Program-made: the position numbers and the translations under genes | The notes under the pieces: model-generated | The model's database searches: none | The model's input: the letters and a program-made list of their open reading frames with translations, nothing else | What the model was told of the DNA's origin: nothing | DNA from: Nesterenkonia sedimenti | Lineage (GTDB): Bacteria; Actinomycetota; Actinomycetes; Actinomycetales; Micrococcaceae | Assembly: GCF_012641515.1 (NCBI RefSeq) | Contig: NZ_JABAHY010000001.1 | Coordinates: forward strand, 124,001 to 188,000 | Length of the DNA: 64,000 nt | Direction of reading: 5' to 3' | Shown here: positions 45,664-63,349 of the stretch, in pieces | Layout: every line of letters starts with the position of its first letter | How positions within the stretch are numbered: position 1 is the stretch's first letter

Positions 45664-45750
45664 GCGCGGGTGGCGGAATAGGTAGACGCGCAAGCTTGAG
45701 GTGCTTGTCCTCCAATAGTGAGGGTGGGGGTTCAAGTCCCCCTCCGCGCA
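45664..45750 (+). tRNA. tRNA-Leu (anticodon GAG)
   Basis: An 87-base class II tRNA. The acceptor GCGCGGG pairs with TCCGCGC (one G·U pair) with discriminator A at 45750. The anticodon stem CAAGC/GCTTG closes the loop TTGAGGT, giving GAG. A long variable arm follows, as expected for leucine. The T arm is GGGGG-TTCAAGT-CCCCC. The terminal CCA is not encoded. A -10-like TAAAGT lies at 45611–45616. Confidence 0.95.
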
Positions 45751-45758
45751 CGAACGGG

Positions 45759-45805
45759 AAAACCCGGTCTGACTAGGAAATCTCCTAGGCCAGGCCGGGT
45801 TTTCT
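45759..45805 (+). terminator. Terminator after tRNA-Leu
   Basis: AAAACCCGG (45759–45767) pairs with CCGGGTTTT (45795–45803), and an inner CTAGGA/TCCTAG stem (45773–45778 with 45783–45788) extends the hairpin. The TTTT run forms the 3' edge. Confidence 0.75.
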
Positions 45806-45834: not shown

Positions 45835-45840
45835 TAACTT
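45835..45840 (+). promoter_or_regulatory. -10 box (TAACTT) for the trp-type leader
   Basis: TAACTT is followed by six bases and the ATG of the leader peptide. This matches the leaderless layout seen across the window, so the transcript probably begins at the leader ATG. Confidence 0.45.
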
Positions 45841-45846
45841 TCCTGC

Positions 45847-45888
45847 ATGCGTTTGAACCCGGCATCTTCCTGGTGGTGGCTGCAGTAG
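45847..45888 (+). CDS. Trp-rich leader peptide (MRLNPASSWWWLQ)
   Basis: A 13-codon frame, ATG 45847 to TAG 45886–45888, with three consecutive TGG codons at 45871–45879. It lies 106 bases before trpS. Tandem Trp codons at the edge of mutually exclusive hairpins are the hallmark of ribosome-mediated attenuation: a ribosome stalls when charged tRNA-Trp is scarce. There is no Shine-Dalgarno sequence; the TAACTT box six bases upstream suggests leaderless translation. The frame is closed by TAA at 45835–45837. Confidence 0.8.
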   Translation: MRLNPASSWWWLQ

Positions 45889-45931
45889 CAGCCAACTGAC
45901 GCATGTCCGTGGGCTGCATGGCAGCCCGCGG
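45877..45931 (+). promoter_or_regulatory. Attenuator hairpins controlling trpS
   Basis: Stem 1:2 is TGGCTGC (45877–45883, containing the last Trp codon) with GCAGCCA (45888–45894). Stem 3:4 is CCGTGGGCTGC (45907–45917) with GCAGCCCGCGG (45921–45931), 11 pairs with a three-base loop. The antiterminator 2:3 pairs GCAGCC (45888–45893) with GGCTGC (45912–45917). Strands 1 and 3 resemble each other, as do 2 and 4, giving the classic switch. No U run follows stem 3:4, so it ends transcription without one or by another route. Confidence 0.7.
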
Positions 45932-45994
45932 AAGAACCCCGGTCGATCACGCCATGTGGCCCTCTTTGTACCAATTCTTTGGAGAGGGATTCAC

Positions 45995-47051
45995 ATGACC
46001 GACTCATTCACAGCCACCGTGAACCGGATGGCAGGCCTCGAACAGCGCATCGCTGATCACCCGAACGGATTCCGGATGCTCACCGGTGAGAGGCCTACCG
46101 GGGCGCTTCATCTGGGACATTACTTCGGCACAGTCAGAGAGCGGGTCCGATTGCAGAACCTGGGCGTGGACGCATTCGTGATTCTCGCCGACTATCAGGT
46201 GATCACAGATCGTGAGGCATCCTCTGAGGTGGCCGAGCATGTCCGCAATGCAGTGCTGGACTACCTCGCCGCTGGGCTGGACCCCTCGCGGACCACGATA
46301 TTCACCCACTCCGCGGTGCCAGCGCTGAACCAATTGATGCTGCCGTTTCTGAGCCTTGTCACCGAGGCAGAGCTGCACCGGAACCCCACGGTGAAAGCGG
46401 AGCATGCCGTCTCCGGCCGGGCACTGAGTGGGCTCTTGCTGACCTATCCAGTGCATCAGGCAGCCGATATTCTCTTCTGCAAGGGAAACCTCGTGCCGGT
46501 GGGGAAGGACAATCTGCCCCATGTGGAGCTCACTCGCGTCATCGCTCGCCGGTTCAATGAGAGATATGGACAGGTCTTTCCGGAACCGGAGGCGCTGCTG
46601 ACTGAAACCTCCGAGCTCCCTGGTCTTGATGGCAGGAAGATGTCGAAGTCCTATGGCAATGCGATCTCACTGTCCATGACGGCAGATGAGACAGTTGAGA
46701 TGATTCGGCGGACCAGAACCGATAGTGATCGGGTTATCACGTATGACCCTGTGAACAGACCCGGCGTGGCAGGGCTGCTGTCCACTGCGGCGCTCTGCAC
46801 GGACACCACACCCGAGGAGATAGCCGAACAGATTGGCGACGGGCGGCAGTGGAAGCCTCAAACAGTTCACCACCGATGCCGTGAACACATTCCTGGCAGA
46901 CCACCGGCGGAGGCGGGCTGTGCTAGCGAAGGACCCGGGGCTCGTCACACACATCGTGGAGGAAGGAAACCGCCGAGCAAACGCCATAGCTGAGACGACC
47001 CTGGACGAAGTGCGTTACGCGATGGACATGGGATACGCCGCACAGAGATGA
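45995..47051 (+). CDS. trpS: Tryptophanyl-tRNA synthetase, frameshifted near the C-terminus
   Basis: A class I synthetase that charges tRNA-Trp. The HIGH-type motif is HLGH (residues 39–42) and KMSKS is at 215–219. The frame from ATG 45995 (GGAGAGGG seven bases upstream) stays TrpRS-like up to EQIGDG near base 46843, then reads an unrelated basic tail to 46993. The proper C-terminus (SLKQFTTDAVNTFLADH … EVRYAMDMGYAAQR) continues in the +1 frame to 47051. One extra base in the GGG run at 46841–46843 would explain it: a real mutation, a sequencing error or, less likely, programmed frameshifting. The leader suggests an auxiliary, tryptophan-responsive enzyme, like the antibiotic-resistant TrpRS of Streptomyces. 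A housekeeping trpS would be expected elsewhere. Confidence 0.85.
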
Positions 47052-62417: not shown

Positions 62418-62441
62418 CCTCAACAGTATTGATAGCCTGGT

Positions 62442-62516
62442 CCTTCGGCACGGGGTGCTCCGAATCACGGAGCTGAGAACACACCCGTAGAACCTGTTGG
62501 CTAACACCATCGAAGG
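62442..62516 (+). promoter_or_regulatory. TPP riboswitch (THI element)
   Basis: All conserved parts are present: P1 CCTTCG (62442–62447) with CGAAGG (62511–62516), GGGTG/CACCC (62453–62457 with 62482–62486), CTCCG/CGGAG (58–62 with 68–72 of the 624xx block), the pyrimidine-sensing GCTGAGA, and ACCCGTAGAACCTG for the diphosphate side. The Shine-Dalgarno GAAGGGA (62512–62518) is part of P1, so TPP binding should block translation of thiD. Confidence 0.93.
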
Positions 62517-62524
62517 GAATGCGC

Positions 62525-63349
62525 ATGGGAATCCCCAATATCCTCTCCATCGCCGGCACCGACCCGACTGGGGGAGCCGGGATACAGGCGGATCTGAAGT
62601 CATTTGCCGCCCATGGGGGATACGGGATGTGCGCGGTCACCGCCCTGGTCGCCCAGAACACCCAGGGCGTACGCGAGATCCACGCCCCACCCACATCATT
62701 CCTGCGAGCCCAGTTGGACTCTGTCAGCGATGACGTGACAATCCACGGGGCAAAAACCGGCATGTTGGGCACGGTGGAGATCATCGAAACCGTTGCCGCC
62801 TGGTGGGATGAGACCTACTCAGATAACCGGCCCCGGCCAGCACTGGTGGTTGACCCCGTCATGGTCGCCACCAGCGGGGACCGACTGCTGGATGAAGAGG
62901 CCGAGGAATCCCTCAAAGAGTTCCTCCACCGAGCTGATCTCATCACTCCCAATGTTCCCGAACTGGCCATTCTCGCCGGTGAGGCCCTGGCCTCCTCTGC
63001 GGAGGAACTGCTGGCCCAGGCAGAGAAGGTGGCAGATGCCCACCAGGCCGTGATCCTGGCCAAAGGCGGGCATATGAACAGCGATGAGGTCACCGACACC
63101 CTGGTCTTCCCCGCCGAGTCAGGAACGCGTCCGGAGGCCTATAGTCGCAGCAGCCAACGGATCGAGACCCGCAATACACATGGCACCGGCTGCTCCGTCT
63201 CGGCAGCCTTCGCGACCCTGCGGGCCCAGGGAGCCAGCTGGCAGGAAGCGCTTGCGACCACTAAGGACTGGATGCAGCGGGCCCTGGCCACCTCGGATCA
63301 GCTCGATGTCGGGCAGGGCAATGGGCCGATCAATCACTTCCCCGACTAG
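62525..63349 (+). CDS. thiD: Hydroxymethylpyrimidine/phosphomethylpyrimidine kinase
   Basis: A 274-residue ribokinase-fold enzyme that phosphorylates HMP and HMP-P in thiamine synthesis. SIAGTDPTGGAGIQADLK (near residue 8) is the substrate loop. GAKTGMLG, VVDPVMVATSGD and the anion hole NTHGTGCSVSAA, with catalytic Cys, complete the site. The ATG at 62525 is used because GAAGGGA is eight bases upstream; an ATG at 62519 would be too close. The TPP riboswitch supports ThiD over the related pyridoxal kinase. No other thi gene is nearby, which suggests salvage of the pyrimidine. Confidence 0.93.
   Translation: MGIPNILSIAGTDPTGGAGIQADLKSFAAHGGYGMCAVTALVAQNTQGVREIHAPPTSFLRAQLDSVSDDVTIHGAKTGMLGTVEIIETVAAWWDETYSDNRPRPALVVDPVMVATSGDRLLDEEAEESLKEFLHRADLITPNVPELAILAGEALASSAEELLAQAEKVADAHQAVILAKGGHMNSDEVTDTLVFPAESGTRPEAYSRSSQRIETRNTHGTGCSVSAAFATLRAQGASWQEALATTKDWMQRALATSDQLDVGQGNGPINHFPD

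Follow-up and report, generated by a model that had tools for sequence, protein, structure and literature searches.

A conserved tryptophan-codon leader and candidate translational switch before an auxiliary trpS gene of Nesterenkonia sedimenti

The 64,000-nucleotide stretch of Nesterenkonia sedimenti DNA analysed here (contig NZ_JABAHY010000001.1 of assembly GCF_012641515.1, positions 124,001 to 188,000 of the forward strand; hereafter the window) carries an extra gene for a tryptophanyl-tRNA synthetase (TrpRS), trpS2. The gene is preceded by a short leader open reading frame (ORF) with three tryptophan (Trp) codons and by six strands of alternative pairing partners, the last of which comprises the Shine-Dalgarno (SD) sequence and start region of trpS2 (Table 1). 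Leader and strands together are called the element below, and a helix is named by its two strands. Trp attenuation of an extra trpS is a known kind of control; the form seen here has two additional conserved strands and, probably, a translational output. On balance we lean towards the reading that the element is a ribosome-mediated Trp attenuator that acts mainly on translation initiation of the auxiliary trpS.

Table 1. Features of the element and of trpS2, with positions in the window
Feature	Positions	Strand	Basis or remark
-10-like TAACTT of putative leaderless promoter	45835-45840	+	six bases 5' of leader ATG (45847)
Leader start region, can pair with 45898-45905, closing the 1:2 arm	45846-45853	+	sequence only; no statistical count
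Leader ORF, MRLNPASSWWWLQ and stop, 13 codons	45847-45888	+	three Trp codons at 45871-45879; sequence reading
Strand 1, GGCTGC	45878-45883	+	1:2 paired in 99.4% of 318 alignment cells
Strand 2, GCAGCC, overlaps leader stop codon	45888-45893	+	2:3 paired in 99.7% of 318 cells
Hairpin 3:4, 11 bp, loop AUG	45907-45931	+	-21.8 kcal/mol; 3:4 paired in 94.9% of 530 cells
Strand 3, GGGCTGC	45911-45917	+	sequence reading
Strand 3 plus 3:4 loop, GGGCTGCATGG, partner of strand 5	45911-45921	+	3:5 conservation
Strand 4, GCAGCCC	45921-45927	+	sequence reading
Strand 5, CCATGTGGCCC, pairs with strand 3 plus loop or with SD/start region	45952-45962	+	conserved pairing, shuffled controls, folding
Hairpin 5:6, hides SD and trpS2 start codon	45953-45997	+	-19.9 kcal/mol, predicted fold
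SD of trpS2, GGAGAGG	45981-45987	+	sequence reading
Auxiliary trpS (trpS2)	45995-47051	+	Pfam PF00579; TIGR00233 in two pieces; +1 frame change near 46.84 kb

Relatives of trpS2 were sought in one genome per species across 84,980 species, and the best 80 of 522 confirmed relatives were fetched (loci carry L numbers). A covariance model places the element in 36 of these 80, with 69-109 bits; since the same 36 loci and the window built the model, these matches confirm placement only. Searches with the model beyond these loci matched 14 of 396 genomes of the order, the window's own genome included (11 strong and three weak matches), four of 394 genomes of the class, two of them new, and 11 of 57 genomes of one genus, five of them new. 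Two narrower searches (1/47 and 2/85 matches) yielded nothing new, and some of the extra finds may be the same species as the 80 loci, as L117, L137 and L115 show. Rows L117 and L137, identical over the element to L065 and L064 respectively, were excluded before counting, as were L125, L126 and L127. These last three represent a weaker variant (35-39 bits) with MxxxxWWWL leaders before TrpRS genes, in which strand 5 is not obvious. The alignment thus obtained holds 54 elements, 52 before trpS and two before the gene of a GNAT acetyltransferase; L115, which equals L067, was counted once in the helix-pairing counts (53 distinct rows).

Trp codons are a constant property of the leader. Because L129 has no leader start, leaders were counted in 53 of the 54 elements; 52 contain two or three Trp codons and one a single codon (L061, spotted by eye, the other Trp leaders upstream of trpS having been found by script). 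The motif TANNNT stands 10-14 nt 5' of the leader start in 51 of the 53 copies; six control windows gave 0-1. The two misses are consistent with it if the leader starts at an ATG one codon earlier. No SD-like motif was found 5' of the leader in any of the 53 copies. Transcription would start at the leader ATG itself. A second frame crosses the leader from 45822 onwards; it was discarded, since conservation is seen in the Trp frame. The leader stop codon lies between -2 and +10 nt from strand 2 in all 53 copies, so that a terminating ribosome would cover strand 2. In addition, the folding of positions 45840-45995 is stronger than that of all 200 dinucleotide shuffles (z -3.71). An earlier sequence-only reading had described a 13-codon leader with three tandem Trp codons, a leaderless leader start (TAACTT, six bases, ATG) and the mutually exclusive hairpins 1:2, 2:3 and 3:4. 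All of these are present in the window as placed, and in the aligned copies both the Trp codons and the stems are conserved. The choice between the helices would depend on the position of the ribosome.

This four-strand layout had overlooked two further conserved strands, 5 and 6. Strand 5 can pair either with strand 3 or with strand 6, and the latter hairpin would cover the SD together with the start codon. Strand 5 (consensus CCGUGCAGCYCC) lies 17-34 nt 3' of strand 4 and is complementary over 11 bp to strand 3 together with the loop of hairpin 3:4; all 11 pairs are intact in the window. In a pairing-blind MAFFT alignment, 3:5 is paired in 97.6% of 572 cells, 12 of which show two-sided changes. 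The covariation score of the helix was matched by none of 500 shuffles, and versions slid out of register are paired in only 33-52% of cells. In the loop columns, two-sided changes occur as U-A (window, L124) and as A-U (L035, L046, L049), and none of 3:4, 2:3 and 1:2 can account for them; the column next to the loop has a two-sided U-A in six sequences, namely a Nocardia-like group and L066. Taken together, these columns suggest about five separate compensations in 3:5.

The existence of 3:5 bears directly on how expression might be stopped. The sequence-only reading had remarked that no U run follows the 3:4 stem and had left the manner in which transcription stops open. The first remark is correct and general: within 18 nt behind 3:4 the longest T run is 1 in 29 copies, 2 in 22, 3 in two and 4 in one, so that 53 of the 54 copies have no T run above 3. 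The partial exception, L051, has TTTT beginning seven bases behind strand 4. The second part, a four-strand transcription attenuator, does not account for strand 5. Transcribed 17-34 nt after strand 4, strand 5 comes too late to influence a stop at 3:4, and for this reason a part for 3:5 in that step was rejected. Made past any stop at 3:4, strand 5 can give 3:5 a meaning only later, through SD exposure or through Rho, and the layout points to translation initiation.

Classical transcription attenuation, in which 3:4 would terminate intrinsically despite lacking a U tract and strand 5 and the SD hairpin would be secondary, is in our view unlikely. It would agree with the classical arrangement of 1:2, 2:3 and 3:4, with the TTTT near the 3:4 stem of L051, and with Streptomyces lividans trpL2, which precedes trpS and is regarded as an attenuator although it is described as having no uridine-rich stretch (PMC8079986). 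Sister trpS leaders also speak for it: the Trp leaders of L132, L133, L134 and L136, from Streptomyces and Embleya plasmids, all have a hairpin followed by 4-6 T. However, T runs behind 3:4 in the element remain at or below 3 in 53 of 54 copies, and a stop there would give no reason for the conservation of 3:5, whose second strand is only made afterwards. The four plasmid genes also differ from the window type in that they match covariance model R1 weakly or not at all. Their SD is partly paired too (unpaired 0.18-0.48), so that SD pairing alone does not separate the two types. A fifth such gene, L135 (Nonomuraea trpS), has no U tract and has a strong SD hairpin (SD unpaired 0.03). As S. lividans trpL2 is itself reported without a uridine-rich stretch, the contrast between U tract and SD hiding is drawn from L132, L133, L134 and L136. 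On that contrast, related trpS genes seem to join one amino-acid sensor to two outputs, a terminator hairpin in the four Streptomyces-type plasmid genes and SD hiding here.

A stop by Rho, with the ribosome or the structures controlling its access to the RNA behind the leader, appears quite improbable to us. The missing U tract behind 3:4 would suit it, SD hiding could add Rho polarity within trpS, and Rho has been suggested to act at actinobacterial cys leaders that have no hairpin terminator (PMC1262725). Against this, only a short and poorly conserved piece of RNA separates strands 4 and 5, and Rho control does not by itself need 3:5.

The translational reading, to which we lean, draws further on the hairpin that strand 5 forms with strand 6. 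In the window CAUGUG pairs with CACAUG, which contains the trpS2 AUG, and CCCUCU pairs with AGAGGG of the SD. SD accessibility was predicted for 37 of the 54 elements, with shuffling of the strand-5 part as a control for chance SD pairing in GC-rich RNA. In the segment from strand 5 to the start codon the SD is unpaired with a mean of 0.11, compared with 0.31 after shuffling (0.01 and 0.26 in the window). In these folding predictions the SD is thus hidden beyond shuffled controls in most elements. Similarly, the predicted SD is more open with 3:5 forced than with 3:4 forced in 31 of the 37, with means of 0.34 and 0.11.

From these observations the following sequence of events may be proposed. 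When charged tRNA-Trp is plentiful, the ribosome would reach the leader stop codon and cover strand 2, 3:4 would form, and strand 5, left without its strand 3 partner, would fold over the SD and start codon (OFF). With no ribosome on the leader, 3:4 and then 5:6 would form and the SD would likewise be hidden. When charged tRNA-Trp is short, the ribosome would stall at the Trp codons and the free strand 2 would capture strand 3, blocking 3:4. Strand 5, once made, would then invade 2:3 by way of the nucleotides of the would-be 3:4 loop, and the resulting 3:5 helix would leave the SD open (ON). A simpler version, in which formation of 2:3 is enough to free the SD, was rejected, since nothing would then keep strand 5 from hiding it.

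Folding-path estimates are consistent with such a relay. Starting from 2:3, the mean barrier is 5.9 kcal/mol to 3:5 and 11.1 kcal/mol to 3:4, being lower for 3:5 in 53 of 54 elements; removing the loop pairs raises the barrier to 3:5 to a median of 12.5 kcal/mol, an increase seen in 54 of 54. Mean energies of 3:4 and 3:5 are close (-17.7 and -16.3 kcal/mol) and the barriers between them are high (18.7 and 20.2), so that whichever helix forms first should stay. In a direct-path model whose prefactor is set to 1e6 per second, 2:3 survives beyond one second with a median probability of 0.98 (0.84 at 1e7), and displacement by strand 5 has an estimated median half-time of 5.5 ms.

Along with the TTTT of L051, several observations weigh against the translational reading. 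Concerning the 3:5 helix, its number of pairs with two-sided change (4) was matched in 94 of 500 shuffles and its number of pair types (15) in 93 of 500, neither of which is exceptional; the +2 slide has 14 two-sided cells compared with 12 in the true register; and variation is mainly one-sided G-U. Concerning the SD, in seven of the 37 elements at least 40% of the shuffles hide it equally well, in six it is less open with 3:5 forced, and the gain on forcing 3:5 exceeds 0.3 in only 13; in the window itself the SD is unpaired 0.22 with 3:5 forced and 0.01 with 3:4 forced. One element of the 54, L053, is without the toehold advantage. Furthermore, equilibrium folding with the ribosome masked gives a mean SD unpaired of 0.12 for the stalled ribosome and 0.13 for the ribosome at the stop codon, while 3:4 stands at 0.78 and 0.86 and prevails on average in every ribosome state. 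In four of the 37 elements (L037, L038, L050 and L057) 2:3 exceeds 0.8 at equilibrium with the ribosome at the first Trp codon. Since equilibrium folding does not switch on average, the switch, if real, would be kinetic, that is co-transcriptional.

The gene behind the element is an extra copy in its genome, as had been claimed from the sequence. A second trpS of N. sedimenti scores higher (356 bits) and is 39% identical to trpS2. Elsewhere in the genus (29 further genomes), 28 genomes hold nothing closer than a match of 34-39% identity, and the last, which is 79% complete, holds no match. Given the other trpS and a genus otherwise without a close copy, trpS2 is auxiliary and was probably acquired. 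As a copy additional to a housekeeping trpS, it may be of the indolmycin-resistant auxiliary TrpRS kind. Copy number was checked in 38 genomes reached through the loci, comprising 32 carriers of the element (of the 36 among the 80 loci) and six non-carrier loci. At least two trpS above the family cut-off are present in 32 of the 32 carriers, which argues that the gene of the element is the auxiliary one. The genomes of non-carrier loci L041, L085, L070 and L098 have one trpS, whereas those of L055 and L069 have two. The switch therefore accompanies spare trpS copies, though two spare copies are without it. L041, L085, L055 and L069 are close trpS relatives, and in L041 and L085 the gene is the sole trpS of the genome.

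The reading frame of trpS2 shifts by +1 within 46831-46843, whereas a single continuous frame of 328-358 residues is found in all 101 loci in which an ORF was found. This change may be an assembly error or a lesion, and the translation of trpS2 was kept unmended across it. An intact switch before a decayed gene, a pseudogene, is a possibility that we put well short of an even chance, and it would concern the copy in the window, not the mechanism of the element. The broken frame and the solitary position of the auxiliary copy in its genus fit such decay. However, the assembly is a draft of 64 contigs, in which a sequence error is possible, codons beyond the break still match TrpRS, and the window retains the complete 3:5 helix.

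A trpS tree was built without 23 rows judged redundant; L115, L117, L129, L137 and L139 were not entered, and L123 yielded no trpS. The tree intermixes families, and together with the patchy distribution of the element this suggests horizontal transfer. Plasmid copies of the element occur in Microbacterium sp. No. 7 (111 bits) and Rhodococcus sp. DN22 (73 bits), and the Microbacterium plasmid gene (L130) adjoins an IS21 element, a possible vehicle for spread.

In two loci, L123 (ORF from 1637) and L124 (ORF from 1632), the element precedes a GNAT acetyltransferase gene and not trpS. The two proteins (158 and 161 aa) are 72% identical and come from genomes of different families. This GNAT family occurs widely (in 267 of 396 genomes), and among the 30 best GNAT loci fetched from these 396 genomes the leader occurs only in L123 and L124. 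Its presence ahead of a GNAT gene offers a lead to a function connected with a lack of charged tRNA-Trp. Tentatively, and at something less than an even chance, the element may be viewed as a portable Trp-sensing cassette built on a translational relay, in which 2:3 serves just to hold strand 3, and the 3:4 loop acts as the toehold for strand 5 to take over strand 3 and free the SD. Placed before genes of two unrelated kinds, auxiliary TrpRS and GNAT, it would perhaps provide two answers to TrpRS poisons. If true, such a relay would amount to a toehold exchange found in nature and driven by a ribosome that translates a leaderless leader; it would also account for a halt in expression where no U run exists.

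Leader-peptide stalling that frees the SD of the next gene is known from translational attenuation of the erm/cat type and from the rtpA leader of Bacillus subtilis. The arrangement proposed here would differ from these in that the partner of strand 3 is decided between a placeholder, 2:3, and hairpin 3:4, with strand 5, when released, acting on the SD, and from erm/cat in that the Trp codons would sense charging and not a drug. Closer kin are the trpS attenuators of Streptomyces, to which that of Streptomyces coelicolor trpRS1 reportedly belongs. The kinship in layout proposed from the sequence holds: those of Streptomyces avermitilis trpS2 (PMC1262725) and S. lividans trpL2 (PMC8079986) also place Trp codons in a short, leaderless ORF upstream of an additional trpS and have alternative hairpins, trpL2 with a single Trp codon. 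In the tree, plasmid-borne Streptomyces and Embleya trpS fall among the relatives of trpS2. The available passages on these attenuators mention neither a helix between strands 3 and 5 nor SD hiding (PMC1262725, PMC8079986), and searches of open-licence PMC turned up no description of either before trpS in titles, abstracts or passages. Attenuators of trp biosynthesis operons in Corynebacterium and Streptomyces share two or three tandem Trp codons and helices 1:2, 2:3 and 3:4, but the element has no U tracts and has the added strands 5 and 6 (PMC1262725). Mycobacterial cysteine-rich leaderless upstream ORFs are comparable as amino-acid-rich leaderless ORFs of an actinobacterium with a proposed control in cis; they differ in amino acid and genes, and the available passages hold no multi-strand structure (PMC4633059).

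An Rfam scan of the 64 kb returned only one tRNA and a TPP riboswitch at gathering score, with no T-box or Trp leader match. The TPP riboswitch, at 62441-62536, barely attains the Rfam gathering score (54.5 versus 54.3 bits). Directly upstream of the element, at 45664-45803, lies a tRNA-Leu (anticodon gag) followed by a long inverted repeat that ends in TTTT and resembles a tRNA terminator.
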